In this document: positions 3,604-51,715 of the stretch, one piece after another
Numbering within the stretch: the first letter of the stretch is position 1
Layout of the letters: each line of letters opens with the position of its first letter
NCBI GenBank assembly: GCA_902566925.1
Contig: CACFKO010000005.1
Location: 1-64,000 of the forward strand
Reading direction: 5' to 3'
From: an uncultured Pelagibacteraceae bacterium
GTDB lineage: Bacteria; Pseudomonadota; Alphaproteobacteria; Pelagibacterales; Pelagibacteraceae
DNA: 64,000 nucleotides
Position numbers and translations under genes: made by a program
The notes under the pieces: generated by a model
What the model was told of the DNA's origin: nothing
What the model saw: the letters and a program-made list of their open reading frames with translations, nothing else
Databases searched by the model: none

Positions 3604-3604
3604 G

Positions 3605-4033
3605 ATGAAAAGAACAGAACTTAAAAAAATAATTAAGCCATTAGTAAAAGAGTGTGTCCAAGAGACTATTCTGAACGATGGACTTCTGTCTAATATAGTA
3701 TCAGAAGTCATGCAGGGAATGGGAAACCAGTTCCTCGTAGAAAATAAAGAACAGGTTGTTCCCACAATGTCTAATGAAAACAGTGTCCAAATGGAACAGT
3801 TAAAAGAAAGGCAAAACGAAACAAGAAAGCGTTTACTTGATGAAATAGGCAAAGATGCTTACAACGGAGTTGATCTTTTTGAAGGTACAACGCCTATTAG
3901 AGATAGTGGGCGCCCAAATGCAATGGGTCAGGCAAATCCCATGTCTGGCCAAGATCCCGAAGACCCCGGTGTTGATATTTCAGCTATTGTTGCTTTAGGT
4001 GGTAAAAACTGGAAGGCTTTAGCTAATAACTAA
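3605..4033 (+). CDS. Unknown head-region protein
   Basis: The 142-residue product is unrecognised. Its first 30 residues form a basic-amphipathic helix (MKRTELKKIIKPLVKE) resembling in style the N-terminus of the two genes at the end of this window. The rest is hydrophilic, with a Gly/Pro/Asn-rich C-terminal third. It sits directly behind the prohead protease. An internal head protein is possible, with the N-terminal helix acting as a capsid-targeting segment, but this is speculation. Confidence 0.7.
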   Translation: MKRTELKKIIKPLVKECVQETILNDGLLSNIVSEVMQGMGNQFLVENKEQVVPTMSNENSVQMEQLKERQNETRKRLLDEIGKDAYNGVDLFEGTTPIRDSGRPNAMGQANPMSGQDPEDPGVDISAIVALGGKNWKALANN

Positions 4034-4040
4034 CTATTTA
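4033..4040 (+). promoter_or_regulatory. Late-type motif ACTATTTA
   Basis: One of ten intergenic copies of ACTATTTA, here followed by AAGG. It ends 19 bases before the start at 4060. It is interpreted as a late promoter element by recurrence and position only. Confidence 0.55.
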
Positions 4041-4059
4041 AAGGAAGAGAGGAAAAACA

Positions 4060-4521
4060 ATGGCAACATTACCAAAGGATGCACAATCTCAAATATTCGG
4101 CGGCTCTTATGGCGTTGGATTCAATAACGTTGGAAGCTATCAGGCAAGCGCAAAGCCCTATATTAAATCAGAATTAGTTGTGCCTGCATCCTCTAGTGAT
4201 GCATCCACAGCCTTAGAAGTAAGCTTTCCAAAAGTAACAAAATTTATTACTGTCAGAAATGATGGAACTTCCTCTGAGGAAATCCGTCTTGCCTTTGCAT
4301 CTGGTGGGCTCGGTGTTAATAAGGCCGGGAACACATCTGGCAACAATTATATCAAGATTGCACAATCAGCGTCGTTTTCAGCAGATTTTAGAGTTACAAA
4401 ATTATATCTCATGTCTGAAGATGCACACACACCAAATGCAACTGTTATTGCTGGTTTGACACAAATAGATGACGCTCGCCTACCAAACTCTTGGAAAGGC
4501 GACGAAGGCGTCGGTGATTAA
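4060..4521 (+). CDS. Probable virion protein, unknown
   Basis: The 153-residue product is rich in Ser, Ala, Thr and Val, with alternating hydrophobic residues that suggest beta structure. It lacks any catalytic motif. It follows an ACTATTTA motif and a GGAAGAGAGG site, and lies among head genes, so a capsid-surface or internal structural protein is likely. I recognise no family. The composition (small and neutral, with Gly-Asn loops) would fit a head decoration protein, but this is inference. Confidence 0.7.
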   Translation: MATLPKDAQSQIFGGSYGVGFNNVGSYQASAKPYIKSELVVPASSSDASTALEVSFPKVTKFITVRNDGTSSEEIRLAFASGGLGVNKAGNTSGNNYIKIAQSASFSADFRVTKLYLMSEDAHTPNATVIAGLTQIDDARLPNSWKGDEGVGD

Positions 4522-26831: not shown

Positions 26832-28019
26832 ATGTATTTTCAGACGCTCGACGATAAGGGCGAATGTGTAGGAGTGTATAAAGATGGAAACCTGTATTTC
26901 GAGGACATCCCAAGTGGGTGTGTCCGGACGTGGAAATACGCCGAATATCTTGAAAAAGATGATGTGGACTACGGCAGTATTTTCTGCGGAAATCGGAGTC
27001 TTAATGACGCTTGTCCAGCTTTCCTGATCGACGATTGGGTTGCTGTTGAGGACAAACTAAAGGCTTATTATCGCTCGTTTGTGTTGGCCAAGGTCAATAT
27101 GGACGAGAATTGTTTTTTTGACCTTGTTCCAAGGCCATTTTTGCTTGAATACTGCGAAATTCGCAACAAAATCACGCAATATGTCTTTGAAAACTACGAA
27201 AAACCGCAAAACTATGACTTTATGGTTGATTTGACCAAGGTATTGGCACGCATACGACACCAAAAGCTAAACATTGACGTATCATCCCTCTCTAATCAGG
27301 CTCATTTGGCCAAGTTTCGGAAGGCAATGAAGAAGTTTAGCCAGATTGACCCGTATTGCCGGTATAATATCAACGGAACCAAGACAGGTCGCTTAACGAC
27401 CCAGAAGAACTCGTTCCCTGTTATGACAATGGACAAAGATTTTCGTTCTATCGTCAAGCCGACCAATGACTGGTTCGTTGAGCTAGATTTCAACGCCGCC
27501 GAGGTGCGAACACTTATGGCACTAGGAGGCTCTGAGGTGCCCTTAGAAGACATCCACGACTGGAATGTGCGTAACCTATTTAATGCGGGCGTCACACGCG
27601 AGGAGGCCAAGCAGAAGTTCTTTTCGTGGCTGTATGACGAGAATAAAACCAACCCAAGACTCTCCAAGTATTACGACCGAGACAAGGTGCGTGAAATGCA
27701 CTGGGATGGGCAAGTTGTCAAGACTATGTTTGGCCGTGAGATTGAAGCAGACCGCAAACACGCCCTAAACTACATCATTCAGAGCACCACAGCAGATCTT
27801 GTGCTCCGTCAGGTTATCAAGGTCCACGAAATGCTGCGAGATATGAAGTCTTTCATTGCATTTACGATTCACGACAATATTGTGCTTGACATCGTGGACG
27901 AAGAGCGTTACATTATTCCTAAGTTGATTGAAAAGTTCTCTGACACTGATCTTGGCAAATATCTCGTAAACGTCAAGGCAGGCAAGAACTTTGGTGACTT
28001 AAGGACGTTAAATCTATGA
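26832..28019 (+). CDS. DNA polymerase, family A, without exonuclease domain
   Basis: The 395-residue product holds the family A polymerase core. It has TGRLTT (185-190), motif A ELDFNAAEVR with catalytic Asp219, DIHDWN (240-245), and motif B with Arg256, Lys260, Phe264 and Tyr268 in the R-x3-K-x3-F-x3-Y pattern of the O helix. It also has a QSTTADLVLR helix and motif C FTIHDN with Asp348. The usual HDE is HDN. The N-terminal 130 residues do not resemble a 3'-5' exonuclease, so proofreading is absent or supplied elsewhere. It starts after GTGGGGG and overlaps the FtsZ-like gene by ATGA. Confidence 0.88.
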   Translation: MYFQTLDDKGECVGVYKDGNLYFEDIPSGCVRTWKYAEYLEKDDVDYGSIFCGNRSLNDACPAFLIDDWVAVEDKLKAYYRSFVLAKVNMDENCFFDLVPRPFLLEYCEIRNKITQYVFENYEKPQNYDFMVDLTKVLARIRHQKLNIDVSSLSNQAHLAKFRKAMKKFSQIDPYCRYNINGTKTGRLTTQKNSFPVMTMDKDFRSIVKPTNDWFVELDFNAAEVRTLMALGGSEVPLEDIHDWNVRNLFNAGVTREEAKQKFFSWLYDENKTNPRLSKYYDRDKVREMHWDGQVVKTMFGREIEADRKHALNYIIQSTTADLVLRQVIKVHEMLRDMKSFIAFTIHDNIVLDIVDEERYIIPKLIEKFSDTDLGKYLVNVKAGKNFGDLRTLNL

Positions 28020-28846
28020 ATATTATCGGTTTAGGACAAGCAGGCTGCAACATCGCAGATGCACTAGCACAATACCCACAGTATAACATCTACAAGATTG
28101 ATGTTGGCTTGGAAGGTAAGAAGTGTTTGAATATCAAACAACAATCTGGTCCCGAGGAGTATGAGGCCAATGCACCATCAATGAAAACTTTCTTCCGTAA
28201 CATCAAGGGCGATACTCTTCTTGTTGTCGGAGGCTCAGGAAGTATTTCTGCTATGTCTCTTCGTATTATGGAGGCAATCAAAGATAAGTGCAAGATTGAT
28301 TTGCTTTATATTCAGCCAGATAAGAGTCTCTTGACTGGAAAGCGCCAGATGCACGAAAAAGTAACATACAATGTGTTGCAAAACTATGCTCGTTCTGGTG
28401 CCATCAGCCGGATGTATCTTATTTCAAACCCACAGTTGGAGAACATTCTTGGTGATGTTCCGATTATGGGCTACTTTGATAAGTTGAACGAACTGATTGT
28501 TTCAACGATTCATATGATTAATGTTTTTAAGAATTCTACCCCTGTTCTAGGTGGGCTCCGTGAGCCTGCTGGGACACGACGAATTTGCACAGTTGGAATC
28601 TACGATATGGAAAAAGATGAAGAAAAGTTGTTTTTTTCGCTTGACACCATCCGTGAGACGTGCTATATTTATAGTGTTGGGGAAAGAAGACTGCGCGAAG
28701 ATGGATCTCTTCACAAGACCATCGTCACGCAGATGAAGGGCAAGACAAATGATGAGACACCAAATGTCTCGTTTGGCGTCTTTCCCACCAACTACGAGAC
28801 GGATTATGGGTATGTCATTGCTTATAGTCCCAATATACAAAACTAG
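28016..28846 (+). CDS. Divergent FtsZ/tubulin-like GTPase
   Basis: The 276-residue product begins with IIGLGQAGCNIADAL, which fits the GxGxxGxN nucleotide-binding start of FtsZ. A short Gly-rich segment (VVGGSGSISA, about residues 64-73) stands where FtsZ has GGGTGTG. It is followed by a segment parallel to FtsZ strands and helices (LLYIQPDKSLLTGKRQM, then YLISNPQLENILGD, against FtsZ KPFxFEGxxRM and IPNDxLLxxLG). The synergy-loop aspartate is not evident (INVFKNSTP), so GTP hydrolysis may be altered. It overlaps the polymerase gene and lies before SSB. An internal promoter occupies codons near residue 210. A filament or a scaffold is possible. Confidence 0.62.
   Translation: MNIIGLGQAGCNIADALAQYPQYNIYKIDVGLEGKKCLNIKQQSGPEEYEANAPSMKTFFRNIKGDTLLVVGGSGSISAMSLRIMEAIKDKCKIDLLYIQPDKSLLTGKRQMHEKVTYNVLQNYARSGAISRMYLISNPQLENILGDVPIMGYFDKLNELIVSTIHMINVFKNSTPVLGGLREPAGTRRICTVGIYDMEKDEEKLFFSLDTIRETCYIYSVGERRLREDGSLHKTIVTQMKGKTNDETPNVSFGVFPTNYETDYGYVIAYSPNIQN
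28641..28669 (+). promoter_or_regulatory. Sigma70-type promoter inside FtsZ-like gene
   Basis: TTGACA, a 17-base spacer and TATATT, with TGC directly before the -10 element (extended -10). It lies inside the FtsZ-like coding region, about 225 bases before the SSB gene, which it would drive. Confidence 0.65.
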
Positions 28847-28894: not shown

Positions 28895-29647
28895 ATGGCT
28901 ATTGATCTAAACAAGATGCGTGCAAAACTGACTGCACTTCAAAACCGAGGCGAAAAGAAGGATTCTGCTTTTTGGCGTCCAGAGGATGGCGAACAAACGA
29001 TTCGTATCGTCCCGACTGCTGATGGCGACCCCTTCAAGGAGTATTGGTTCCACTACAACTTGGGTAAGAACCCCGGTTTCCTGTCCCCGAAGCGTAACTT
29101 CGGTATTGACGACCCGCTGAACGATTTCGTTCGTCAGTTGTTCAAGGATGGAACAGAGGATTCTATCAAGATGGCGAAGAACCTTATGGCTCGTCAACGT
29201 TTCTTTGCTCCCGTGTTGGTTCGCGGTGAGGAAGAGAAGGGAGTCCGTATCTGGGGCTTTGGTAAGATGGCGTATCAGGAGTTGTTGAACCTTGTTCTCA
29301 ACCCCGAGTATGGCGACATCACCGACGTTGAAACTGGCACCGACCTTGTTCTCAAGTATGGTAAGCCAGCAGGGGCACAGTTCCCACAGACAACGTTGAC
29401 TCCACGACGCCGAACATCTCCACTTTGCGATGATGCACTTGGTGGACCAGAGAAGTGTGCGGAACTTCTCGAAAGCATTCCAGACTTTGACGGTCTGTTT
29501 CCGCGCAAAAGTCCAGAGGAAATCCAGACAATGCTCGATGAGTGGTTGGCTGGTGAAGATTCCGCTGGCGATGATGTTGTCAAGTACGACAACAATGGCA
29601 CCACAACTTCGGTTGACAGTGCTTTTAACGAACTAATGAACGCATAA
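28895..29647 (+). CDS. 32: Single-stranded DNA-binding protein, gp32-like
   Basis: The 250-residue product has the layout of T4 gp32. A basic N-terminal helix for cooperativity (LNKMRAKLTALQNRG) comes first, then FWRPEDGEQTIRIVP, equivalent to the start of the gp32 core, the VRIWGFGKMAYQELLN segment, and an acidic C-terminal tail (from about residue 210) that would bind partner proteins. The zinc-binding Cys/His set of T4 gp32 is not present. It coats single strands during replication and recombination with UvsX, helicase and the polymerases in this window. A strong AAGGAG site precedes it. Confidence 0.88.
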   Translation: MAIDLNKMRAKLTALQNRGEKKDSAFWRPEDGEQTIRIVPTADGDPFKEYWFHYNLGKNPGFLSPKRNFGIDDPLNDFVRQLFKDGTEDSIKMAKNLMARQRFFAPVLVRGEEEKGVRIWGFGKMAYQELLNLVLNPEYGDITDVETGTDLVLKYGKPAGAQFPQTTLTPRRRTSPLCDDALGGPEKCAELLESIPDFDGLFPRKSPEEIQTMLDEWLAGEDSAGDDVVKYDNNGTTTSVDSAFNELMNA

Positions 29648-29661
29648 AGGAAAATATCAAA

Positions 29662-29967
29662 ATGTTCAGTTTTATAAATCGTGATCACGTCTTCGGCGCG
29701 GTCTTTGGTGTGGCAGCACTCGCCGCTCTCTCTTTTGTCACTGGTTGTGGCGAGGAGAAGGCTGATGAGACCGCTGATACGGCAATCGTCGCCACTTCTA
29801 CCACGGTCACTGAGACCACCACCGGAACCACGACTGGGACCACTGGAACTACCACGGGTACGACCACTGGCACCACGACTGGCACTGGCACCGGAACCAC
29901 GACCGGAACTGGTACCACCACTGGTACTGGGACTGGAACGGGCACCGGAACTGGCACTGGTAGCTGA
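29662..29967 (+). CDS. Predicted lipoprotein with Thr-Gly repeat tail
   Basis: The 101-residue product has a hydrophobic N-terminal stretch (residues 10-28) ending in V-T-G-C, a lipobox with Cys29. It would therefore be exported, lipidated and anchored in the envelope. After a short acidic linker (GEEKADETADTA), the last 55 residues consist only of Thr and Gly, apart from a final Ser, in TTGT/TGTG units encoded by an imperfect DNA repeat. Phage lipoproteins often act in superinfection exclusion or lysis, but nothing here identifies which. It follows SSB by 14 bases and is followed by a hairpin with T-run. Confidence 0.75.
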   Translation: MFSFINRDHVFGAVFGVAALAALSFVTGCGEEKADETADTAIVATSTTVTETTTGTTTGTTGTTTGTTTGTTTGTGTGTTTGTGTTTGTGTGTGTGTGTGS

Positions 29968-31871: not shown

Positions 31872-32339
31872 ATGAGTTTATACGAGAAGATTAAGGCACT
31901 TGGTGTCGAAGATGATACAAAAGTTAATTTCAGCATTGAAGAGGGAGCAGAAGTTTTCCATTTTAATGAAACACACATCGAAACAGCGATGGGCGAAACT
32001 GGTTTTGCTTACACATTGGCAGAGGCTATCACAAGTGGCGTTCTCTACGAGAAAGGCAACGAGATCCTTGATGAAATGCGAGAGGAAGGCTTGCTTGACG
32101 AGTATGAGCGAGGCGACGAAGCGTTCACCGACTTTGTATCAGAAATCATTGAGGAAAATCACTGGAACTTTGGTTGGATTGAACATTCAACCGAGAAGTA
32201 CGACCATAAGCGTGGTTACACTGAGCTTTCGGCTGAGTTTGATATTCCTCTTGCTGATCTAAAGAACGATCCCTATCCGCTTATTGGATGGAAGGCATCT
32301 GTTCAGACCCCTAACGGCTATTTGACGGTTGACCGATAA
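31872..32339 (+). CDS. Unknown acidic protein upstream of UvsX
   Basis: The 155-residue product is acidic and shows no known motif. It has a helical centre (EGNEILDEMREEGLLDEY) and several Trp/Phe/Tyr residues near the end, and is probably soluble and compact. It follows the prolyl isomerase gene behind GGAGGG. Its stop codon overlaps the UvsX start (TAATG), so it is co-translated with the recombinase and could be a partner or regulator, which is inference only. Confidence 0.68.
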   Translation: MSLYEKIKALGVEDDTKVNFSIEEGAEVFHFNETHIETAMGETGFAYTLAEAITSGVLYEKGNEILDEMREEGLLDEYERGDEAFTDFVSEIIEENHWNFGWIEHSTEKYDHKRGYTELSAEFDIPLADLKNDPYPLIGWKASVQTPNGYLTVDR

Positions 32340-33460
32340 TGGCTAGGGCAAAGAAGCAAAAGGCAGGAAGACTTTCTATCGCAGATATGCGAAAGATTGT
32401 TAATAAGAAAGCAGGTGAGGAGGTTGCCCACAACCTTTCGGGTACAAACCCGACCGAGGTCAAAGAGTGGATTCCAACTGGATCTAGATGGCTAAACTCT
32501 ATCATCTGTCGCGGCAAGTATGCTGGTATTCCAATCGGTAAAATCAGCGAGATTGCTGGCCTTTCCGCTTCTGGTAAATCATATATGGCGGCTCAGATTG
32601 CAGGCAACGCCCAGAAAATGGGGATTGACGTTGTTTATTTTGACTCTGAGTCCGCTGTGGACCCAGACTTCTTGGCAAACGCTGGTTGTGACATTGATAA
32701 CTTACTTTACATTCAAGCACAATCAGTTGAGTTTGTCTTAGAAACTATTGAAGAGCTTTTGGCAGGTAATGAAAACCGAATGCTCTTTATCTGGGATTCA
32801 CTTGCGATGACGCCTGCTATTACTGACATCGAGGGCGATTTTAACCCTCTATCCAGTATGGCAGTCAAGCCTCGTATTCTTTCAAAGGGATTTGCTAAAT
32901 TAACAGTCCCTATTGCAAACTCTCAATCAACCTTGCTGATTCTTAATCAGCTAAAAACGAACATTACAAGTAACATCGCGGAAGCGCGTCTGGAGCCTTA
33001 TTTCACCCCCGGTGGAAAGGCCGCAATCTACGCCTATTCTCTTCGCATCTGGCTGACAGCGAGACGAGGTAAGGCTAGCTATCTATATGATGACAAAGGC
33101 TTCCGTGTTGGTACTGAGGTGAAAGCAAAGATTAAGAAGTCCCGTTTTGGGTCTGATGCGAGAGAATGTACATTTAAGATTATGTGGGCTGGCGATGATG
33201 TGAAGATTCAAGACCAAGAGTCTTGGTTGGAGGCGGTAAAGTCTTCCACTCAGATTAGCAACGCAGGTGCATGGTTTACACTGAAGCACGAAGATGGCTC
33301 AGAAGAAAAATTCCAAACAGCAACTTGGATGAAGAAACTCGAAGACGACAAGTTCAGAAACCGTATTCTACAGATTATGGAAGAAGAAGTTATCTTGAAG
33401 TTTGAGAAGAAAGAGGTTGACGCAAAAGAATTTTATGATATTGATGGAGAAGATGAATAA
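32339..33460 (+). CDS. uvsX: RecA-like recombinase, UvsX
   Basis: This is the strand-exchange ATPase for recombination-dependent replication and repair. The 373-residue product has Walker A GLSASGKS (residues 74-81), a Walker B region MLFIWDSLAM near residue 140-150, and a loop-rich DNA-binding segment near 195-225 (LNQLKTNI, then PGGKAAIYAYSLRIWL). T4 UvsX has 391 residues. It lies with SSB, exonuclease and helicase genes. Translation starts at the ATG that overlaps the preceding stop. Confidence 0.92.
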   Translation: MARAKKQKAGRLSIADMRKIVNKKAGEEVAHNLSGTNPTEVKEWIPTGSRWLNSIICRGKYAGIPIGKISEIAGLSASGKSYMAAQIAGNAQKMGIDVVYFDSESAVDPDFLANAGCDIDNLLYIQAQSVEFVLETIEELLAGNENRMLFIWDSLAMTPAITDIEGDFNPLSSMAVKPRILSKGFAKLTVPIANSQSTLLILNQLKTNITSNIAEARLEPYFTPGGKAAIYAYSLRIWLTARRGKASYLYDDKGFRVGTEVKAKIKKSRFGSDARECTFKIMWAGDDVKIQDQESWLEAVKSSTQISNAGAWFTLKHEDGSEEKFQTATWMKKLEDDKFRNRILQIMEEEVILKFEKKEVDAKEFYDIDGEDE

Positions 33461-33851: not shown

Positions 33852-34820
33852 ATGCAACGTGTAGTAGTTATTGACGCACTAAATATGTTTATTCGGAATT
33901 ACATTGTTAATCCGATGATTTCAACCAACGGCAACCCAATCGGTGGGGCTGTTGGTTTTGTTAACTCGGTCAAGAAGTTGATGCGAGAGTCTAAGCCAGA
34001 CCAAGTTATCATTTGTTGGGACGGCGCAGGAGGCTCACAGAAGCGTCGTCAGACCGTCAAAGAATACAAGAAGGGTAGGAAGCCTCTCCGTAAGAACTAC
34101 GAGGTAGAGGGTATGTCAGAGCAGTCTGAGAAAGAGAATATGGTCTGGCAACAGCGCATCCTTATGGAAATGCTGAACGAGATGCCCATCATTCAACTTA
34201 TGCTCGACCGTGTTGAGGCAGACGACATCATTTCTATGATCGCAGGCTCACCCAAGTATAAGGGTTGGCAAAAGGTTATTGTTTCATCAGACAAAGACTT
34301 TTTACAGTTGCTTGACGACGAGACTGTCCTTTATCGCCCCATCCAAAAGAAGGCGTGGACGAAGAACACAGTTATTGAGGAATACGGAATCTCGCCGGAA
34401 AATTTTGTTATTGCAAGAGCGATTGCCGGTGATAAGTCCGACAACCTCGCAGGAATCAAAGGTGCAGGCCTACCAACCATCGCAAAGCGCCTGCCTTTCC
34501 TTATTGACAACGAGATGCACACACTTAGTGAAGTTTACGACCATTGTGCCAACGCAGAGGGTAAACTTAAATTTCACGAAAGAATTGTAGAAGATTGGGA
34601 TGTGGTAGAGACTAACTATAAAGTTATGAATCTTACACCGCCAAGCATCTCTGTCCAAGGGCGACGAAAAGTCAACTATGCCCTTGATAACTTTGAATTT
34701 GAGTTGAACGCAACCGAGCTAAAACGTGCGTCTGTCGAGCATGGCTTCGGTTCTTACGATTGGTCCGAGCTTATGGCGATGCTCCGAGGAATCGTAGAAA
34801 AAAATAAGATGATTGCTTGA
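33852..34820 (+). CDS. 5'-3' exonuclease / RNase H, FEN family
   Basis: This is a flap endonuclease-type enzyme that removes RNA primers and flaps, corresponding to T4 RNase H. The 322-residue product has VVVIDALNMFIRN at the start, CWDGAGGSQKRR near residue 55, EADDIIS near 125 and SSDKDFLQLL near 145. It also has the helix-hairpin-helix region AGDKSDNLAGIKGAG near 195, all metal-binding or DNA-binding hallmarks of the family. It follows its own promoter with a very short leader. The next promoter overlaps its stop codon. Confidence 0.92.
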   Translation: MQRVVVIDALNMFIRNYIVNPMISTNGNPIGGAVGFVNSVKKLMRESKPDQVIICWDGAGGSQKRRQTVKEYKKGRKPLRKNYEVEGMSEQSEKENMVWQQRILMEMLNEMPIIQLMLDRVEADDIISMIAGSPKYKGWQKVIVSSDKDFLQLLDDETVLYRPIQKKAWTKNTVIEEYGISPENFVIARAIAGDKSDNLAGIKGAGLPTIAKRLPFLIDNEMHTLSEVYDHCANAEGKLKFHERIVEDWDVVETNYKVMNLTPPSISVQGRRKVNYALDNFEFELNATELKRASVEHGFGSYDWSELMAMLRGIVEKNKMIA

Positions 34821-34845
34821 CAGCAGCCGCTTTATAGGCTATATT
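34817..34845 (+). promoter_or_regulatory. Sigma70-type promoter of helicase gene
   Basis: TTGACA, a 17-base spacer and TATATT. The -35 element overlaps the stop codon of the exonuclease gene. The helicase start is about 16 bases after the expected transcription start. Confidence 0.75.
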
Positions 34846-34867
34846 AATAATCCACGGGGGAGTTCAC

Positions 34868-36232
34868 TTGGAAAACAACAAACCAAGTTTCAGTAAATTT
34901 GGTAAAGATTTTCAAGAGTCATTGTGTCAAATGATTCTTCAAGATCGGCCATTCGCAGACCAGATTATGGAGGTTCTAGACACTAACTTTCTAGAGCTTC
35001 ACTATCTCCGTGTCTTCGTAAAGAAAATATTTGAGTATCGTGAGGAGTTTGGTGTTCATCCAACTTATCGTATTATGATCTCTGTTATTCGCGCAGAACT
35101 TGACGATGAAAATGCAGCAACTCAACAACAATTGAGAAATTATTTTGCTCGCATTCACAACGCCGAGGTAAGCGGTTCAGACTATATTAAGAAGATTTCT
35201 CTTGAATTTTGCCGTAAGCAAAAACTCAAAGAAGCGATGATTAAGTCTGTTCCGCTGCTTGAAAAGTCCTCTTTTGATGAAATTGCTAAGATTATTAACG
35301 ATGCCATCAAATTGGGTGACCACTCCGACCACGGCTATGACTACCTAAAAGACTTCGAACGTCGCTTTGAAATCAAGGCCCGAAATCCTATTTCTCTGGG
35401 CTGGAACGACATCGACGGACTATGTAAAGGTGGACTCGGCAAGGGCGAGTTAGGCGTAGTTATCGCGCCAACGGGGGCAGGGAAGTCAATGGTGCTTGTA
35501 CACTTGGGGGCAGAAGCCTTAAAGTTAGGGAAAACTGTTGTTCACTATACGCTTGAGTTGGCCGACACTGTTGTGGCGAGTCGTTATGATTCGTGCATCA
35601 CTAAGATTCCCCTTGGTCAGTTACACTCTTTCAAAGAAGAGATTTATGAGCAGGTGCAAGACGTGGAGGGAACACTAATCGTGAAGGAGTATCCCACGAA
35701 GTCAGCATCTACGCGCTCATTAAAGACTCACTTAGAAAAACTAAAAATGCGGGATATCAATCCTGATATGGTGATTGTTGACTATGGCGATTTGTTGCGG
35801 CCAGTTTCTGCCCAAAAGGAGAAAAGAAACGAACTCGAATCTATTTATGAAGAGTTGCGAGGATTGGCAAAGGAATTTGACTGTTGCCTTTGGACCGCAT
35901 CACAAACAAATAGGTCAGGACTAAATGCAGAAGTTATCACACTGGAATCTATATCAGAAGCCTTTAACAAGTGTTTCGTTGCTGACTTTATCTTTTCACT
36001 TTCGAGAACCGTAGAGGATAAGCAAGCCAACACAGGCCGTATTTTCGTCGCCAAGAACAGAAACGGTCCTGATGGTATTGTGTATCCAATATCTATGCAT
36101 ACCGCAAATGTTCAAATAGAAGTATTGCAGCAAACAGGCGAAGAAAAAGCAATGTTAACTGCGAAAGACCAAAGTGAAGTGTTAAAAGAAAAATATAAGA
36201 AATTTAGAGACAAACAAAAGAAAAAAGATTAG
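34868..36232 (+). CDS. Replicative DNA helicase, DnaB/gp41-like
   Basis: This is the hexameric helicase that unwinds DNA at the fork. The 454-residue product has an N-terminal helical domain (about 1-150) and a RecA-type motor with Walker A APTGAGKS (200-207). It continues with a YTLELADTVVASRY segment, Walker B MVIVDYGDLL near 300, and WTASQTNRSG near 345, a typical DnaB-family pattern. T4 gp41 has 475 residues. Translation starts at TTG after a GGGGGA site. I see no separate primase gene in the window. Confidence 0.92.
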   Translation: MENNKPSFSKFGKDFQESLCQMILQDRPFADQIMEVLDTNFLELHYLRVFVKKIFEYREEFGVHPTYRIMISVIRAELDDENAATQQQLRNYFARIHNAEVSGSDYIKKISLEFCRKQKLKEAMIKSVPLLEKSSFDEIAKIINDAIKLGDHSDHGYDYLKDFERRFEIKARNPISLGWNDIDGLCKGGLGKGELGVVIAPTGAGKSMVLVHLGAEALKLGKTVVHYTLELADTVVASRYDSCITKIPLGQLHSFKEEIYEQVQDVEGTLIVKEYPTKSASTRSLKTHLEKLKMRDINPDMVIVDYGDLLRPVSAQKEKRNELESIYEELRGLAKEFDCCLWTASQTNRSGLNAEVITLESISEAFNKCFVADFIFSLSRTVEDKQANTGRIFVAKNRNGPDGIVYPISMHTANVQIEVLQQTGEEKAMLTAKDQSEVLKEKYKKFRDKQKKKD

Positions 36233-43632: not shown

Positions 43633-44474
43633 CGACACACCTTGCCGGTATTGTTCCAGTTGTAACCAAACAAATGGATTTTCAGTTGGACTGGCACGAC
43701 TGTCTGATGCCCATCGCACCCAACTTTTATGCTATTGAAAGGGCAGTTTTGGAGTGCGCTTACGCAGGTTGCAAAACCATCTGGATTATAGCGAACGACG
43801 ACACAACACCACTCGTCAGACACCGTATCGGGGACTTTGTGCAAGACCCAGTATACTTAAAGCGCAAATCAAGGTTTCCGTCGCAACATAGGCAACAAAT
43901 ACCGGTGTTTTATGTCCCAATCGCGTCAAATCACAGTAACAAAGCCAACTGTATTTCTTGGTCTATCCTGTTTGGTGCCAAAACAGCACTTGAAGTAGGA
44001 AACACGATCAGCAAGTGGATCTCACCAAGCAAATACTATGTTTCTTTCCCATATTCCGTTTACCCAGCAGACATTTTAAGACCTGCGAGACAAGATATAT
44101 CTAATCACGACTTCTTTTTGACATTTGACGGCAAATCTTTTAAAACTAATGATTTATTAGGGTTTACCTTTAATAACGAGCATATGGTAAAGATCTTGGA
44201 TGTGTTTAGGGACACAGAGAACAGCTTTTTGTTAGGAGACAATCTGTCAAATGAAGAAGTTTTCTTTGAGAACAACTTTACGCTTGACAAAACGTTTGGT
44301 CGTGTTATAATGAATAAGGAGATGGGGCTAGAAGTTCCTTGGTACTATCCGATTGATAGTTGGAACGCTTATTGTAAATATCTGGGGTCCGAGGAGAAGG
44401 CGTTTATCCGCCATCCCGGCAGACTAGTTATGTCCTATCGAGAATTTAATCCAGTGGGGGTGAATGATGAGTAA
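43629..44474 (+). CDS. Unknown protein, nucleotidyltransferase-like start
   Basis: The 281-residue product starts with AGIVPVVTKQMDF, then a helix and strand AVLECAYAGCKTIWIIANDD. This order is like the GT-A fold of sugar nucleotidyltransferases (a strand with a Pro-rich loop, a helix, then a KxIxIVxxDD strand). The classical G-x-G-T/S-R loop is missing, so the assignment is weak. It is coupled to the preceding gene by ATGA. A sigma70-type promoter lies within its last 200 bases and drives the polymerase gene, whose start overlaps its end. Confidence 0.58.
   Translation: MTTHLAGIVPVVTKQMDFQLDWHDCLMPIAPNFYAIERAVLECAYAGCKTIWIIANDDTTPLVRHRIGDFVQDPVYLKRKSRFPSQHRQQIPVFYVPIASNHSNKANCISWSILFGAKTALEVGNTISKWISPSKYYVSFPYSVYPADILRPARQDISNHDFFLTFDGKSFKTNDLLGFTFNNEHMVKILDVFRDTENSFLLGDNLSNEEVFFENNFTLDKTFGRVIMNKEMGLEVPWYYPIDSWNAYCKYLGSEEKAFIRHPGRLVMSYREFNPVGVNDE
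44284..44311 (+). promoter_or_regulatory. Sigma70-type extended -10 promoter for polymerase III
   Basis: TTGACA, a 16-base spacer and TATAAT with TGT before the -10. It lies inside the preceding coding region, about 150 bases before the DNA polymerase III start. Confidence 0.75.
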
Positions 44475-47400
44475 GATTGCGTTTGTTGGTTTGCACGCAC
44501 ATAGTGTAGCCGGTTCTATTTTTGATGGGCTTGGTTATCCACAAGAGCATATGGACTTTGCCTATGAGAATGGTATGGATGCCCTTGCGCTGACAGACCA
44601 CGGCAATATGAATGGTCTAGCGTGGCAGGTTCTACACGCCAAGAAGATGAAGGCTGCTGGCAAAAACTTCAAGCCTATCTTCGGCTGTGAAGCCTACTTT
44701 GTGCCGTCTATCGCAGAATGGCGTGAAGACTATGACAAGATTATGCAGGATAAGAAGGCAGCAAGAGCAGCCAAGAAGGAAGAAACATCCGGTGCAACGG
44801 TAGAAGACGAGAACGCATCTAAGAAAGCCGTTCGCAACATTCTAAACCGTCGCCGTCACTTGGTTCTTCTGGTTCAGAACCAGACTGGCCTAAACAACCT
44901 GTTTAAACTGATCTCTGAGTCGTATCAGCCAGAGAACTTTTATCGCTATCCCCGTATTGACTTTGATCTGCTGGAGAAGTATAACGAAGGCATTATTGCG
45001 TCCTCTGCTTGTCTTGGAGGCGTTTACGCCGGTTGTTATTGGGAGAACCGAGAGCAAGGTGAGAAAGCCGTCCTAGACGCTATGAGAATCGTTACCGAGC
45101 GTATGATTGACATCTTTGATGATCGTTGGTACGGTGAACTCCAATGGAATAACATCCCCGAGCAACACGAACTCAACAAGTACATCATCCAAGTGTGCAA
45201 AGAGTATAATGTCCAGATGATTTCAACGGCTGACTCGCACTATCCCAACCCTGATGCTTGGCGCGACCGTGAACTTTACAAGCGGCTTGGCTGGCTTGGT
45301 AAAGGTCGCCCATCGTGGGGTGGTGATGGTGAGTTGCCTATTGATGTGGATGAAATCGGCTATGAACTTTATCCTAAGAACGGCGATCAGATGTGGGAGT
45401 CTTACAAGAAGTATTCTAAGTCCTGCGATGTAGAGTATGATGACCAGCTAGTCTATGACTCACTCACGACTACACACTTTATCGCACACGAACGCATTGA
45501 ATCGTTTATGCCCGATAACACAGTTCGTTTGCCTGACTTCGTGATTCCGGTTGGCGAGACAGCAGACTCAGCCCTTCGTAAGTTCTGTTTTGAAGGACTA
45601 CGAGCCAAGAACCTGCACAATGACGATGAATACACAGATCGTCTGGAACACGAACTTTCGGTTATTGCAGACCGTGGTTTCTCTAAGTATTTCTTGACTA
45701 TGAACGAGATTGCTACCATCACCAACGAAGTGATGCTCACAGGCCCCGGTCGTGGTTCTGCGGCTGGTTCTCTGGTCGCTTATGCACTGGACATTACGCA
45801 AGTTGATCCTCTCAAGTACGGACTTCAGTTTGCACGTTTCCTTCGTGCCGATGCGACAGACTATCCAGATATTGACTATGATGTAGCCGAGCCGATGGAG
45901 TTGAAAGAACTTCTAGTAGAGAAGTGGGGTAACGATGTTGTCGCTCCTATCTCTAACTGGAACACACTCCAGTTGAAGTCTCTTATCAAAGACATTTCTA
46001 AACTTTACGACATTCCTTTCCAAGAGGTTAACGCCGTTACTGGAAAAATGATGTTTGAAGCAACAGTTGCCGCGAAGAAAAAGCACGGCATCAAGGCTGG
46101 TGTTTATACGCCAACTTTCGAGGAGGTCAAAGAGTTTTCAACAACCCTGCAAGCCTTCCTTCGCAAGTACCCGAATGTTGCAACCCACGTTGACGCCCTT
46201 TATGGGCAAGTCCGCTCTTGTTCCCGTCACGCTGGTGGTGTGGTGATTGCAGAGGATTTGGACCGTCATATGCCCCTTATCTCTTCCAAGGATGTTCGTC
46301 AGACTCCTTGGTCCGAGGGGCAAAACGTCAGACACTTAGAGCCTATGGGCTTTATCAAGTTTGACCTTCTGGGACTCTCTACTCTCCGCATGATTGAAGG
46401 TGCCATCCGGCATGTTCTCAAGCGTTACGAGGGTATTGAGAATCCATCATTCAAGGATGTTATGAGTTACTATAATAGCAAACTCCATCCAGATGTCGTT
46501 GATTTCAACGACCAGAAGGTCTATAAATCGGTGTTCCAGAAAGGTAAGTGGGCTGGTGTATTCCAGTTTACAGAAACCGGAGCACAAAACCTATGTAAGC
46601 AGGTTCAGCCAACGAATCTTATTGATATCTCGGCTATTACCTCTATCTTCCGTCCCGGCCCTCTGTCAGCGAATGTTGACAAGGACTTCGTGAAGACACG
46701 CAGTAATCCCGGTATGGTGACTTATATCAACGAGATGCACCGTGAAGTAACGGAAGAAACAAATGGCTTCCTTATTTTCCAAGAGCAGATCGCTATGTTG
46801 GCTCACAAGCTAGGTAAAGACTTGACACTGGACGAGGGCAATATGCTCCGTAAAGTTCTGACAAAGAAAGGCACGGGTAAAGCAGCAAAAGTCAAGATGG
46901 CACTCCACGGCAAATTTATTACAGGCTGTGTTGAGAAGGGGATGAAGGAAGCAGAGGCCGAGCGCCTATGGCAGACCTTTGAATATTTCTCTGGTTATGG
47001 CTTTAACAAATCACACGCTGTATCGTACTCTATGATCTCGTTCCAGTGTGCGTGGCTACTAACTTACTATCCAGAGTGCTGGATGGCAGCGTTCCTTGAT
47101 AAAGAGCCTGAAACTCGTAAAGAGAAGGCTATCGGTATTGCCAAGCAGTTTGGTTTTGAAATTGAGCCGCTAAACATCAATACTTCTGGCCGTGTCTGGG
47201 AGATCAGTCAAGATGGCAAGCGACTAATCCAGCCGCTTACTTCAATCAAGGGTCTGGGCGATTCAGCAATTGACCAAGTGTTTGTGGGCCGTCCGTTCCA
47301 TTCTATTGAAGATTTTATTTTCAACGAAGAGATGCGATACTCCAAACTTAACAAGAAGTCGCTTGATGTTCTGGTCAGGTCTGGAACCCTGTCTCCGCTG

Positions 47401-47898
47401 ATGGATAATCGGTTTACAGGACTGAAACACTTCTGGTCAGCAGTGGCAGTGGATAGGCCACGAAAGCCAAAGAACCTCGAAGAGAACATTGAGTTGTATG
47501 CTCCCGAAGGAGACTTCTCCGAGGAAGAAAAGATTCAATCTCTTGTTGATCTTACGGGCCAGTTTCCGCTTGACCGAGTTGTCAAGGAAGAAGTTATGGA
47601 GAAGTTGAACGCAATGGCGATCCCTCCAATCTCCGAGTATGATCCCGACCTACAAGTTGTGTGGCTTATCCCTCGTAAGATTATCCCGAAGAAGACCAAG
47701 AACGGCAAGGACTATTTGATTGTTGAGGCGACTGATTCTAACTCTTCTAATGTTCGCATCCGTTGTTGGGGTGTTGATTTAAATGGTGGCGACCATATTC
47801 AAACAAATAAATTGTATATGATTCGTCCCAATTATAGTATGGAATGGGGATTCTCTACCCGAGGCAGAGCATATAAAACGTGGAAGGCACTTGCATAG
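44464..47898 (+). CDS. dnaE: DNA polymerase III alpha subunit, DnaE-type
   Basis: The 1144-residue product is a full-length bacterial-type replicative polymerase (E. coli DnaE has 1160). The N-terminal PHP domain has GLHAHSVAGS and ALTDHGNMNG, with metal-ligand residues kept. The polymerase core has GRGSAAGSLVAY, YPDIDYDV with the catalytic Asp pair, SRHAGGVVI, and KFDLLGLSTL with the third Asp. FRPGPL and an HHH region follow, and the last 100 residues form an OB-like domain. It starts at ATG-ATG after GGGGGTG. A chromosomal-type polymerase alongside a family A enzyme is unusual for a T4 relative. Confidence 0.94.
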   Translation: MMSKIAFVGLHAHSVAGSIFDGLGYPQEHMDFAYENGMDALALTDHGNMNGLAWQVLHAKKMKAAGKNFKPIFGCEAYFVPSIAEWREDYDKIMQDKKAARAAKKEETSGATVEDENASKKAVRNILNRRRHLVLLVQNQTGLNNLFKLISESYQPENFYRYPRIDFDLLEKYNEGIIASSACLGGVYAGCYWENREQGEKAVLDAMRIVTERMIDIFDDRWYGELQWNNIPEQHELNKYIIQVCKEYNVQMISTADSHYPNPDAWRDRELYKRLGWLGKGRPSWGGDGELPIDVDEIGYELYPKNGDQMWESYKKYSKSCDVEYDDQLVYDSLTTTHFIAHERIESFMPDNTVRLPDFVIPVGETADSALRKFCFEGLRAKNLHNDDEYTDRLEHELSVIADRGFSKYFLTMNEIATITNEVMLTGPGRGSAAGSLVAYALDITQVDPLKYGLQFARFLRADATDYPDIDYDVAEPMELKELLVEKWGNDVVAPISNWNTLQLKSLIKDISKLYDIPFQEVNAVTGKMMFEATVAAKKKHGIKAGVYTPTFEEVKEFSTTLQAFLRKYPNVATHVDALYGQVRSCSRHAGGVVIAEDLDRHMPLISSKDVRQTPWSEGQNVRHLEPMGFIKFDLLGLSTLRMIEGAIRHVLKRYEGIENPSFKDVMSYYNSKLHPDVVDFNDQKVYKSVFQKGKWAGVFQFTETGAQNLCKQVQPTNLIDISAITSIFRPGPLSANVDKDFVKTRSNPGMVTYINEMHREVTEETNGFLIFQEQIAMLAHKLGKDLTLDEGNMLRKVLTKKGTGKAAKVKMALHGKFITGCVEKGMKEAEAERLWQTFEYFSGYGFNKSHAVSYSMISFQCAWLLTYYPECWMAAFLDKEPETRKEKAIGIAKQFGFEIEPLNINTSGRVWEISQDGKRLIQPLTSIKGLGDSAIDQVFVGRPFHSIEDFIFNEEMRYSKLNKKSLDVLVRSGTLSPLMDNRFTGLKHFWSAVAVDRPRKPKNLEENIELYAPEGDFSEEEKIQSLVDLTGQFPLDRVVKEEVMEKLNAMAIPPISEYDPDLQVVWLIPRKIIPKKTKNGKDYLIVEATDSNSSNVRIRCWGVDLNGGDHIQTNKLYMIRPNYSMEWGFSTRGRAYKTWKALA

Positions 47899-47919
47899 TG
47901 CTCCGAAGTGTGTTATAAT
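47891..47919 (+). promoter_or_regulatory. Sigma70-type extended -10 promoter
   Basis: TTGCAT, a 17-base spacer and TATAAT with TGT before the -10. The -35 element overlaps the polymerase stop codon. It drives the UV endonuclease gene. Confidence 0.7.
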
Positions 47920-47940
47920 AAATATACAAAAGGGGGGAGA

Positions 47941-48873
47941 ATGAATCTCGGTTACGCTTGTATCAATATGTCTCTATCTGGCTTGCCCAAGTCAAAGAGG
48001 ATTACCACTAACAGAAGTATGATTAAGAGGACGTTCAAGCAGAAAGGTATTGCCTATGCTTCTGAACTGGGTCTACTCAACTGTAAAGATCTATACAAGG
48101 TTCTTGAATGGAACTTAGCCAACGGCTTCTCGTTCTTTCGGTTGTCATCAGACATTTTTCCGTGGTCATCCGAGTATCGCTTGGAAGAGATGCCAGACTA
48201 TCAAGAAATCAAAGCAGTGCTCAAGAAGTGTGGCGACTTTGCTAAACAACACGGTATGCGTATTACAACACATCCCGGCCCATTCAATGTTCTTGGTTCT
48301 CCTAATCCTAATGTTGTAACCAAGACCATTAAGGAACTAAACACACATTCAGAAGTGTTTGACCTGATGGGACTGCCAGCAACACCGTGGGCTAAGATCA
48401 ACATCCACGTTGGCGGCACATACGGCGGTGACTTTGAAGGCACAGCCAAGCGTTGGTGCGAGAACTTCTATCGTCTGGACGAGAACACACAGAAGCGATT
48501 GACCGTTGAGAACGACGACAAAGCATCAATGTGGTCCACCAAGCACCTGTTTGATTACATTCATTCAGAGATTGGCATCCCTATCGTGTTCGACTATCAC
48601 CATCATCGTTTCTGTACTGGTGGGCAAACCGAGAAAGAAGCACTGGAACTGGCGATGAGCACTTGGCCAGATGGTATCACACCCGTTGTCCATTATTCAC
48701 AATCCCGTGCCGAGGAGCACAACGATCCTAAGATTCGCCCACAAGCACATTCGGATTCCTACTGGGCCTTTCCGAATCTCTATGGGCACACACTACACAT
48801 TATGTGTGAGTGCAAACACAAAGAGTTGGGCGTCTATGCCCTGCGAGAACTTCTAAACCGTGCAGCAGCGTGA
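47941..48873 (+). CDS. UV damage endonuclease, UvdE/UVSE-like
   Basis: This is a TIM-barrel endonuclease that nicks DNA 5' to UV photoproducts. The 310-residue product has LGYACINMSL at the start, FFRLSSDIFPW, RITTHPGPFNVLG with metal-binding His, NIHVGGTYG, LTVENDD with the Glu ligand, and VFDYHHHRFC, all typical for the family. The ATG at 47941 follows AGGGGGGAG and is preferred to ATG 47908. It gives repair in sunlit habitats without the T4 DenV enzyme. The next gene starts close behind. Confidence 0.92.
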   Translation: MNLGYACINMSLSGLPKSKRITTNRSMIKRTFKQKGIAYASELGLLNCKDLYKVLEWNLANGFSFFRLSSDIFPWSSEYRLEEMPDYQEIKAVLKKCGDFAKQHGMRITTHPGPFNVLGSPNPNVVTKTIKELNTHSEVFDLMGLPATPWAKINIHVGGTYGGDFEGTAKRWCENFYRLDENTQKRLTVENDDKASMWSTKHLFDYIHSEIGIPIVFDYHHHRFCTGGQTEKEALELAMSTWPDGITPVVHYSQSRAEEHNDPKIRPQAHSDSYWAFPNLYGHTLHIMCECKHKELGVYALRELLNRAAA

Positions 48874-48880
48874 GGATAAG

Positions 48881-49912
48881 ATGAGCGAGTTGAAAGTAGA
48901 TGTAATCGTTGGATTGCAGTCAGGAGACGAAGGAAAAGGTAAGATTACCCATCACCTTCTTAAATCAGGGAAGTATACACACTGCGTTCGTTATAACGGC
49001 GGTGGTAATGCGGGACACACTATCTACCACAACGGTAAGAAGTTTGTGACCCATTATATCCCAGCAGGCGTATTCTTTGGTATTAAGTCTATTATCGGCC
49101 CCGGCTGTGTGGTAAACATTAATAAGTTCTTTCAAGAGATCCGATATTTGAATAACAATGGTATAAAAACAGATGGCCTTGTTTACATAGCGGACAACGC
49201 GCACATCACTATGGAAAAGCACGTCAAGGAAGATTCAAAAGACGAAGAGATCGGCACAACCAGAACAGGCAACGGCCCGACCTACCGCGACAAGTATTAC
49301 CGTAAAGGATACAGGGTCCAGCAGTTTGATATTTTGTATCCTTATGCTATTGACTTTTATGAAGAGTTCCACGAACGTGAGGAAGACATTCACGCATTAT
49401 TTGAAGGAGCGCAAGGTTTTGAACTGGACATTGACTGGGGAGACTACCCCTACGTCACATCCAGCCATTGTACCACAGCAGGCGCACTTCTAAACGGTAT
49501 TCCACCACAAGCACTAGATAGGGTTTGGGGTGTCGCAAAGGCATACGAAACTTATGTTGGGACAAAAGAGTTTGAACCTAAAGAAGAAGTTTTCTCAACT
49601 CTCAGGGATCTAGGCTCAGAATACGGTGCGACAACAGGACGACCAAGACAATGTAACTGGATGGACATTGGCCGATTGAAGCGAGCATCAAACATTAATG
49701 GTGTCCAATCTTTGGTTATTAATAAGATGGACATCCTTAGAGAACTAGGTCAGTGGACTTTGCGTAATGGTAATATTACTGTATCGTTTGAGTCAGAGAA
49801 AGATTTTAAAGATTATATTGTTGAGCAACTGCCCAATGTGGAAATCTATTTCTCAGGTTCGCCGCACGGTTTCAGCAGTACAGCCTACAACAAAGACAAG
49901 GCAGTCGCATAA
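48881..49912 (+). CDS. purA: Adenylosuccinate synthetase, short PurA type
   Basis: The enzyme joins IMP and aspartate with GTP to give adenylosuccinate. The 343-residue product has QSGDEGKGK with the catalytic base Asp16, NAGHTI with His46, TGNGPTYRDK, and TTGRPRQCNWMD near the end. The length fits archaeal PurA and the phage PurZ lineage rather than bacterial PurA (about 430). PurZ enzymes of diaminopurine phages replace the Asp with another residue; here Asp is kept, so the ordinary reaction is expected. The ATG behind GTGAGGATAAG is chosen over the upstream codon inside the UV endonuclease gene. Confidence 0.9.
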   Translation: MSELKVDVIVGLQSGDEGKGKITHHLLKSGKYTHCVRYNGGGNAGHTIYHNGKKFVTHYIPAGVFFGIKSIIGPGCVVNINKFFQEIRYLNNNGIKTDGLVYIADNAHITMEKHVKEDSKDEEIGTTRTGNGPTYRDKYYRKGYRVQQFDILYPYAIDFYEEFHEREEDIHALFEGAQGFELDIDWGDYPYVTSSHCTTAGALLNGIPPQALDRVWGVAKAYETYVGTKEFEPKEEVFSTLRDLGSEYGATTGRPRQCNWMDIGRLKRASNINGVQSLVINKMDILRELGQWTLRNGNITVSFESEKDFKDYIVEQLPNVEIYFSGSPHGFSSTAYNKDKAVA

Positions 49913-50270: not shown

Positions 50271-50552
50271 ATGTTTGGTAACGAAAGTGCCATTGTTGAA
50301 CAAGTCCGTGATGAAAAGACGGAAAAGATGATTGATTACATTAAGAGTTTGAAAGCTATTGAAGATGCTATTGAACCTTATGCCGAGCAAAAGCGTGAAC
50401 TTCGCAAGGAGTTTAAGGAGCAAGGTTGGCTTACAGCGGACGAGATTTCAATGACTGTTAAGGCTTATCGGATGATGAAGAACGATGTGGATATTGACCA
50501 GTTCGTATCTGTGTTTGATTCTCTGTCTAACGCCGCCCGAGGTGGAGCGTGA
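50271..50552 (+). CDS. Small helical unknown protein
   Basis: The 93-residue product is predicted to be entirely helical (EKMIDYIKSLKAIEDAIEP, then EQKRELRKEFKEQGW). The pattern faintly recalls small nucleoid proteins of the GapR type, but this is not secure. The ATG at 50271, after GGAGG with correct spacing, is preferred to GTG at 50259. Its end overlaps the dUTPase start by four bases. Confidence 0.62.
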   Translation: MFGNESAIVEQVRDEKTEKMIDYIKSLKAIEDAIEPYAEQKRELRKEFKEQGWLTADEISMTVKAYRMMKNDVDIDQFVSVFDSLSNAARGGA

Positions 50553-51010
50553 TTTTAGAGTATTACTCAATGCCTCACGCCAAGCACAAGCCCGTCCGAG
50601 CTAATCCTTCGGACGCAGGCTTGGACTTAAAGTATAACCCAGATGTTGGCTCGCAGCCGGTTAGTATTGAGCCGGGGCAAAGTATGATTTTGGGAACAGG
50701 TCTGAAGTTTGGTGTGCCGCACGGATACATGATTCAGATTATGAACCGAAGCGGAAACGCTGCTAAGAAACAACTTATGGTTGGGGCCTGCGTGGTAGAC
50801 TCTGGATACAATGGAGAGGTATTTGTAAATCTTCATAACATCGGCTCAGAGCCACAAACTATCAATCCCGGCGATAAGATCGCACAAGCAGTAGTAATCC
50901 CCGTTGTACCTGTAAGGTTCTTGGAGACAAAGAATGACAACCTCTATGACTGGAGCCCTATTACTATTAGTGGGCGTGGGGATGGTGCTCTCGGCTCTAC
51001 TGGAGACTGA
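50549..51010 (+). CDS. dut: dUTPase, trimeric type
   Basis: The enzyme hydrolyses dUTP to dUMP and diphosphate, keeping uracil out of DNA and feeding ThyX. The 153-residue product shows the ordered motifs of trimeric dUTPases: SDAGLDL (motif 1), NRSGNAAK (motif 2), GACVVDSGYNGEVFV (motif 3), GDKIAQAVVIP (motif 4) and a Gly-rich end GRGDGALGSTG (motif 5). Translation starts at GTG or TTG-like context overlapping the previous stop. It overlaps the TadE-like gene. Confidence 0.93.
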   Translation: MILEYYSMPHAKHKPVRANPSDAGLDLKYNPDVGSQPVSIEPGQSMILGTGLKFGVPHGYMIQIMNRSGNAAKKQLMVGACVVDSGYNGEVFVNLHNIGSEPQTINPGDKIAQAVVIPVVPVRFLETKNDNLYDWSPITISGRGDGALGSTGD

Positions 51011-51438: not shown

Positions 51439-51715
51439 AGAACAACGCCGAGCCGCTGAGAAGCAGGCCAAGAAAGATGGTAGTGGAGAAGTGCAGGAGA
51501 AAGTTGCGCTTTTTGGCAAACTAGGAGATGAATGTCTTGCTTGCTCTAAGCCTTTCGATAAGAAGAATAAAGAAATGGTTATGTCTTGGCAGGTGATTGT
51601 TCACGAAAAAGAAGAAAAAGTTAATCTTTATTGCCCCGATTGTTGGAATAAGGCTCAAGAAGTAATACATAGTTTCATTGAGCATATTGAAAACAAGAAC
51701 GGGGGTGAGGAATGA
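51431..51715 (+). CDS. Zinc-ribbon small protein
   Basis: The 94-residue product has a basic helical start (MNREQRRAAEKQAKK) and two Cys pairs, CLACSKPF (about 35-38) and YCPDCWNK (about 68-71), spaced like a zinc ribbon. It is probably a nucleic-acid or protein-binding factor. The ATG overlaps the TadE-like gene by eight bases and its end overlaps the IMPDH-family gene by four. Confidence 0.7.
   Translation: MNREQRRAAEKQAKKDGSGEVQEKVALFGKLGDECLACSKPFDKKNKEMVMSWQVIVHEKEEKVNLYCPDCWNKAQEVIHSFIEHIENKNGGEE

Follow-up and report, generated by a model that had tools for sequence, protein, structure and literature searches.

Published accounts of phage tubulins (PMC10299810, PMC7824862, PMC10311714) connect them either with jumbo phages that form a nucleus or with the segregation of DNA. 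The PhuZ cytoskeleton is called unique to nucleus-forming jumbo phages (PMC10311714), two distinct FtsZ/tubulin representatives are described from jumbo phages (PMC7824862), and PhuZ homologues are mentioned in huge phages (PMC7162821). Here we describe a gene in a stretch of 64,000 nucleotides (the window; positions 1 to 64,000 of contig CACFKO010000005.1, from a genome assembly assigned to an uncultured Pelagibacteraceae bacterium) that is part of a T4-type phage. The gene, which we call TUB, occupies positions 28016–28846 of the forward strand, has an ATG start, and codes for 276 amino acids that are predicted to adopt the tubulin/FtsZ/CetZ/TubZ fold. It is a regular gene of the replication block in a large T4-type group, and chimallin was not detected in nine records from this group. 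The best explanation that we can offer, held tentatively and at a little under even likelihood, is that the protein serves as a mostly structural subunit, an adaptor or scaffold, of the replication complex.

The words FtsZ and tubulin are missing from the main text of three papers that treat or include Far-T4 phages (PMC4360716, PMC7198788, PMC13037479). Across the titles and abstract openings covered by our literature search, which left out preprints and most subscription papers, no tubulin or FtsZ was reported in T4-type phages, and no published account of the TUB protein was found.

The fold assignment is based on a structure model and on profile comparison. A Foldseek search with the model places FtsZ first in the list, and the structural matches to CetZ and TubZ span 254–272 of the 276 residues, such that the Rossmann-type GTPase domain, the long central helix H7, and the C-terminal domain are all predicted to be present. 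Identity is low, at 12–15% to the FtsZs among the structural matches listed and 14–16% to the archaeal CetZ structures (3zid, 4b45, 4b46). Both CetZ and TubZ have longer chains, with 330–342 residues in the cellular CetZ proteins and 381–414 in TubZ, and TubZ serves plasmid and phage partition whereas TUB is located in a replication block. When the TUB alignment was compared with that of 30 FtsZs (profile-profile alignment, P 0.0046), the T1, T5, T6, and H7 blocks fell in identical order. The alignment recovers GLGxAGCN at T1, sets GG--SGSIS of TUB against GEGGGTGSG of FtsZ at T4, pairs IQPDKSLLTGKRQM with VTKP-FEYEGVWRM, and pairs LISNPQLENI with CIPNDRLVAV. Seven unrelated controls gave P values of 0.086–0.92, although these were single sequences and hence are not an equal control to a profile. 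An FtsZ-like order of motifs from GLGQAGCN onward had been noticed in a sequence-only reading of this DNA, which also proposed the tubulin/FtsZ fold; the alignment reproduces that order, and the modelled structure gave no sign of a different fold.

Tubulin family profiles were also searched, as the same reading had suggested. The window protein has no match to PF00091 (Tubulin), and it has no family in Pfam, PHROGs, or NCBIfam; weak Tubulin matches do occur in seven of 63 members of the TUB family, the best with an E-value of 0.033. At the same permissive threshold (E ≤ 1), TrkA_N was matched by 12 of the 63 members (best 8.8e-6), and PF00091 was matched in none of five large records. These numbers raise the question of whether TUB is some other GxGxxG Rossmann protein of the NAD/TrkA-N type with no relation to tubulin. 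NAD-binding domains lack helix H7 and a tubulin-type C-terminal domain, both of which are matched in TUB. Together with the near full-length CetZ/TubZ match, the first rank of FtsZ, and asparagines N138 and N158 at the places of guanine contacts, this leads us to reject an NAD-binding identity by fold, and we regard it as very improbable. PDB sequence matches to a designed repeat protein were also set aside as a repeat artefact, since no single stretch was significant.

Among viral proteins, the best structural match is A0A6J5RW92 (‘FtsZ Cell division GTPase’ of an uncultured Caudovirales phage; E 1.5e-13, TM 0.78), which differs from TUB in its length of 452 amino acids and shares only 12% identity with it. 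Two other uncultured myoviruses with tubulin-fold proteins, Myoviridae sp. ctcyQ27 and ctijX18 (387 and 347 amino acids), are represented in BFVD as well. PhuZ is likewise a phage-encoded tubulin fold, and a BFVD match to the PhuZ of Noxifer was found (E 1.6e-7, TM 0.53). PhuZ is outside the 50 structural matches listed with CetZ and TubZ, a list that does not serve to test for PhuZ. TUB is not an FtsZ, and its match to PhuZ is structural only. FtsZ matches in isolate-phage records were not used, as many look like mislabelled bacterial contigs.

The features of the nucleotide side are listed below. Row counts refer to an alignment of 180 homologues that includes near-copies of one contig and amounts to 110 when weighted at 80% identity.

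28028–28051, + strand: T1 nucleotide loop, residues 5–12 (GLGQAGCN), with G5 in 180/180 and G7 in 176/180 rows
28100–28102, + strand: D29 at the end of strand S2, the T2 position, with Asp in 172/180 rows
28229–28255, + strand: altered T4 phosphate loop, residues 72–80 (GGSGSISAM in place of GGGTG[ST]G), by alignment
28427–28429, + strand: N138, at the guanine-contact position of T6, where the alignment has the Asn of IPND in FtsZ
28487–28489, + strand: N158, the guanine-contact position of helix H7, by alignment
28523–28585, + strand: residues 170–190 in place of T7/H8, with NxDxx[DE] in 0/180 rows

The position of N158 is presumably that of FtsZ D187 and tubulin N228. T1 is the most conserved of 19 segments of the protein, and both guanine contacts, placed by alignment, are kept in 174 of the 180 rows. 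Other sequence motifs of FtsZ are missing. The GGGTG[ST]G signature is found in none of the 180 rows compared with 26 of 30 FtsZs, and the PhuZ of phiKZ is likewise without it. The NxDxx[DE] synergy motif that follows H7 is also found in none of the rows, compared with 30 of 30 FtsZs. The sequence-only reading had described the GGGTGTG loop and the acidic residue of the synergy loop as altered, and both descriptions apply to the family as a whole. In addition, the stretch from S2 to H3, which includes T3, is approximately 18 residues shorter than in FtsZ, the stretch at the end of H5 is five residues longer, and helices H8 and H9 are predicted to be missing when the DSSP elements are set against the FtsZ topology. 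With no FtsZ-type synergy loop, a GTPase cycle that the protein stimulates itself is less likely.

On the opposite side of the predicted fold, a set of residues is almost invariant.

28082–28084, + strand: Y23, just before strand S2 and, by topology, at the T7-side end of the sheet, in 180/180 rows
28379–28396, + strand: residues 122–127 (QNYARS) at the C-terminal end of helix H5, with Q122 in 179/180 and R126 and S127 in 180/180 rows
28511–28522, + strand: H166-M-I-N169 in the last third of helix H7, with H166 in 179/180 and N169 in 177/180 rows

From their positions ahead of S2, at the H5 terminus, and close to where H7 ends, the parallel sheet of a tubulin fold would place Y23, Q122, R126, S127, H166, and N169 on the T7 side, away from the nucleotide; residue placement was read from DSSP order and the matched fold. 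Residues Q122–S127 adjoin the five-residue insertion relative to FtsZ, and segment 121–132 ranks second of the 19 segments in conservation, after T1.

In six rows both guanine contacts are lost. These rows represent two lineages that keep the gene without the guanine-contact asparagines, and the pocket was likely lost twice independently, as suggested by a quick maximum-likelihood tree with midpoint root. In the lineage of relative L256, the nucleotide side is altered at seven key positions and the six fixed residues of the T7 side are unaltered. The structure model of L256 was made from an alignment that included 48 relatives, and therefore it is not an independent test of fold.

That the gene is retained where the guanine pocket has naturally been lost bears on the suggestion, made in the sequence-only reading, that the protein is a GTP sensor. 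Such a sensor would couple replication to the GTP/dGTP pool, consistent with the guanine contacts retained in 174/180 rows, with the genes for ribonucleotide reductase (RNR), thymidylate synthase, and dUTPase in the window, and with a small gene located between the polymerase and TUB genes in 38 of 131 pairs (relatives such as L033, L042, and L064). The product of this small gene (~105 amino acids) carries KLVRDxIPEI and is, we presume, MazG-like; the one such protein tested has no Pfam match, which speaks against the idea. Because two lineages keep the gene without guanine contacts, sensing is not a function common to the whole family, and we consider a sensor improbable. From the earlier interpretation, the fold, the phage type, and the gene place are retained, and the sensor as a family-wide function is not.

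A second possibility is a PhuZ/TubZ-like filament, perhaps slow or static, by which the infected cell would have its phage DNA, replication sites, or capsids held in position. To our knowledge, nearly all studied tubulin-fold proteins polymerise. The T1 loop and guanine contacts are retained in most members, and the T7-side face is the expected site of longitudinal contact. Known phage tubulins position or segregate DNA (PMC10299810, PMC7824862). However, the FtsZ-type synergy loop and helices H8 and H9 are missing as described above, and the seven nucleotide-side changes of L256 without any change on the T7 side are hard to square with face-on-face packing. Moreover, phages with PhuZ have chimallin, whereas none of nine large TUB records was matched by the phiKZ chimallin query, which did recover its phiKZ control; this was a single-sequence search, and the records (102–194 kb) are possibly fragments. 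The sequence relation to phiKZ PhuZ (P 0.089) is within the range of the unrelated controls. We therefore judge a filament to be unlikely, if less so than a sensor.

The invariance of the T7-side residues in the L256 lineage, which changed on the nucleotide side, is the reason why we prefer a different partner on that face, and the location of TUB within a replication gene block is the reason why we look for that partner among replication proteins. We propose that the ancestor was a guanine-nucleotide-binding tubulin relative that was recruited into a replication operon and became a mostly structural subunit. GTP or GDP may still be present in the pocket of most members, where it would steady the fold, and TUB would run no polymer cycle driven by GTP hydrolysis. 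The face kept in all sampled lineages would be the T7 side, where a normal tubulin touches its neighbour. In TUB, this face would most likely dock a conserved phage replication partner from the same operon, such as the PolA-type polymerase, SSB, or another replisome protein, and TUB would thereby act as an adaptor or scaffold where the phage replicates. The loss of the synergy loop and the invariant residues on the T7 side seem to speak more for such an adaptor than for a dynamic filament or a mimic of FtsZ.

Several points weigh against this adaptor proposal. The placement of residues on the T7 side comes from strand order rather than coordinates, and the fixed residues could be structural or form a rewired self-interface. 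The docking partner is itself a postulate. The 174 rows with both contacts and the top conservation of T1 suggest that most members depend on binding a nucleotide. Few lineages lack the pocket (five near-identical stretches; L226, L227, and a partial relative, L358), and their dN/dS estimates are based on 11–14 changed codons per pair. Finally, TUB diverges faster than its neighbours, with a median identity to the window of 46% among TUB-anchored loci compared with 63% for SSB and 66% for UvsX, which is unusual for a tightly packed replisome subunit.

A bolder form of the proposal is that TUB is a ‘pseudo-tubulin’, a dedicated replisome subunit that is nucleotide-optional and non-polymerising and whose former filament face holds the polymerase, SSB, or helicase. 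We view this as clearly less likely than not. If true, no earlier replication protein with a tubulin fold would be known to us, and the lineages without a pocket would be a counterpart to pseudokinases. In any case, these lineages allow a direct look at what the tubulin fold can do when GTP is absent.

The genes of the replication block in which TUB is located are the following.

26832–28019, + strand: PolA-type DNA polymerase domain protein of 395 amino acids (library match), whose stop codon overlaps the TUB start codon
28016–28846, + strand: TUB, predicted tubulin-fold protein of 276 amino acids (homologues, alignment, structural matches)
28895–29647, + strand: gp32-type single-stranded DNA-binding protein (SSB; library match), which begins 48 nucleotides past the TUB end
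32339–33460, + strand: UvsX/RecA recombinase (library match)
33852–36232, + strand: exonuclease and DnaB-type helicase genes (library match)

TUB is a genuine gene rather than a chance ORF, as established by 935 homologues (E ≤ 0.01, among 1520 candidates in a large protein database), by 13 invariant columns in the alignment of 63 members, and by strong synteny. In IMG/VR, a single-protein query yielded 91 relatives among 98 pattern-matched stretches and an alignment query at least 583 among 600. Each query supplied 80 loci, and 155 loci from both were examined. The nearest recognised upstream gene is PolA in 130 of these, with none in the other 25, where no more than 2.0 kb separates TUB from the locus start; the nearest downstream gene is SSB in 148, with none in the other seven, where TUB lies within 310 nucleotides of the locus end. 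The place between polymerase and SSB genes that was noted in the window thus recurs in related loci.

An anchor independent of TUB was provided by the best 80 of 271 IMG/VR relatives of the window SSB. All 61 loci with at least 1300 nucleotides upstream carry TUB, and 15 of the remaining 19 carry a fragment of it; at least 19 of 77 of these loci lie on sequence that also supplied TUB-anchored loci. The corresponding set for the SSB of Flavobacterium phage immuto (Immutovirus immuto), the first isolate by gp23, consisted of the best 80 of 167 relatives. Of these, 66 have at least 1600 nucleotides upstream, and in all 80 any TUB match is at E 0.13 or above. Ten weaker matches (E 0.13–0.92), nine downstream of SSB and one (L304) far upstream, were dismissed as chance, and six of the 66 loci were tagged as TUB only under a cut-off of E ≤ 1. 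Immuto has the same gene order as the window (polymerase A, SSB, recombinase, exonuclease, DnaB, RNR), with two small genes (151 and 171 amino acids) at the TUB site, and its complete record gave no match to TUB. The TUB profile likewise matched nothing at E 0.1 in the records of immuto, RM378, Mel-JY01, and LR756508, and an isolate-phage collection has no match by tblastn at E 0.01. One RM378 ORF (3445–4395) was considered as a hidden homologue and rejected as chance (E 0.033, with a best part of 8.8 bits over ~50 residues). TUB is therefore a regular gene of one large phage group and not a single odd gene, it was not found in the nearest isolated relatives, and it can be used as a marker gene for its group.

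This regularity also bears on whether TUB is a decoy, inserted into or capping the FtsZ filaments of the host so that division is blocked during infection. Several phages inhibit FtsZ, FtsZ tops the Foldseek list, and a subunit with a nucleotide face but without a synergy loop could poison a filament. At 12–15% identity, with the T3 stretch shortened, a differing T4, and no FtsZ T7 sequence, TUB does not imitate the FtsZ contact residues. Its regular place in the replication block, including the 61 of 61 SSB-anchored loci, fits a replication role better than host takeover, and we rate a decoy about as improbable as a sensor.

Other features of the block concern its small genes and the SSB tail. 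A gene of ~85 amino acids with a VWDLD-type motif lies between TUB and SSB in 25 of 149 pairs (for example L020 and L116), and the partial piece tested has no Pfam match. Directly 3ˊ of SSB, an ORF at 29662–29967 codes for 101 amino acids that begin with a hydrophobic segment and include a long low-complexity tract of Thr and Gly. The window SSB ends in SVDSAFNELMNA, and AFxEL(L/M) is common to many of 45 tails inspected (139 distinct tails in all). The tail looks like a docking peptide for some replication partner. It was rejected as a specific docking peptide for TUB because immuto-type SSBs without TUB end in the similar-looking KFDDLFN.

The assignment to T4-type phages, as in the sequence-only reading, is borne out by gp20 portal, gp21 prohead protease, gp23 major capsid, and tail sheath proteins (Pfam) as well as tail tube and baseplate hub proteins (PHROGs) in the window, and by Gp23 in all nine large TUB records. 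Flavobacterium phage immuto, Microcystis phage Mel-JY01, and Rhodothermus phage RM378 are the top-listed isolates by gp23, before cyanophages, in a ranking rather than a tree, and the window phage is therefore probably Far-T4-like. The group is uncultured, T4-related, widespread, and at least partly oceanic, where ‘ocean’ is based on Tara labels for two of 120 listed homologues and on sample numbers that we take to be marine. A match to a WOR-3 genome (L090, CP070664.1) was not used as a host assignment; the phage part of this metagenome-assembled genome lies between gaps of 100 N, and it is probably a mis-binned viral contig within a bacterial ‘chromosome’ record.

A second DNA polymerase, a replicase of the bacterial DnaE type, is encoded at 44464–47898, 15.6 kb downstream of TUB (TIGR00594, above cut-off). 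It is present in seven of the nine large TUB records, 10–17 kb downstream, and the two records without it end 6.3 and 12.3 kb after TUB, with the first and perhaps the second incomplete. It is found in none of six records without TUB (immuto, RM378, Mel-JY01, and three immuto-type IMG/VR records in which TUB was searched in the fetched locus only). This co-occurrence compares one clade with others and gives no independent statistic.

The window phage also encodes UvsE UV endonuclease (47908–48873), dUTPase (50549–51010), and a GroEL-like protein (57292–58845). An adenylosuccinate-synthetase-like protein at 48860–49912, named PurZ-like in PHROGs and under the NCBIfam cut-offs of PurA and PurZ, belongs to a family found in one of 15 records. 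With an IMP dehydrogenase/GMP reductase-like protein at 51712–52749, a modified-purine pathway in this phage is possible.
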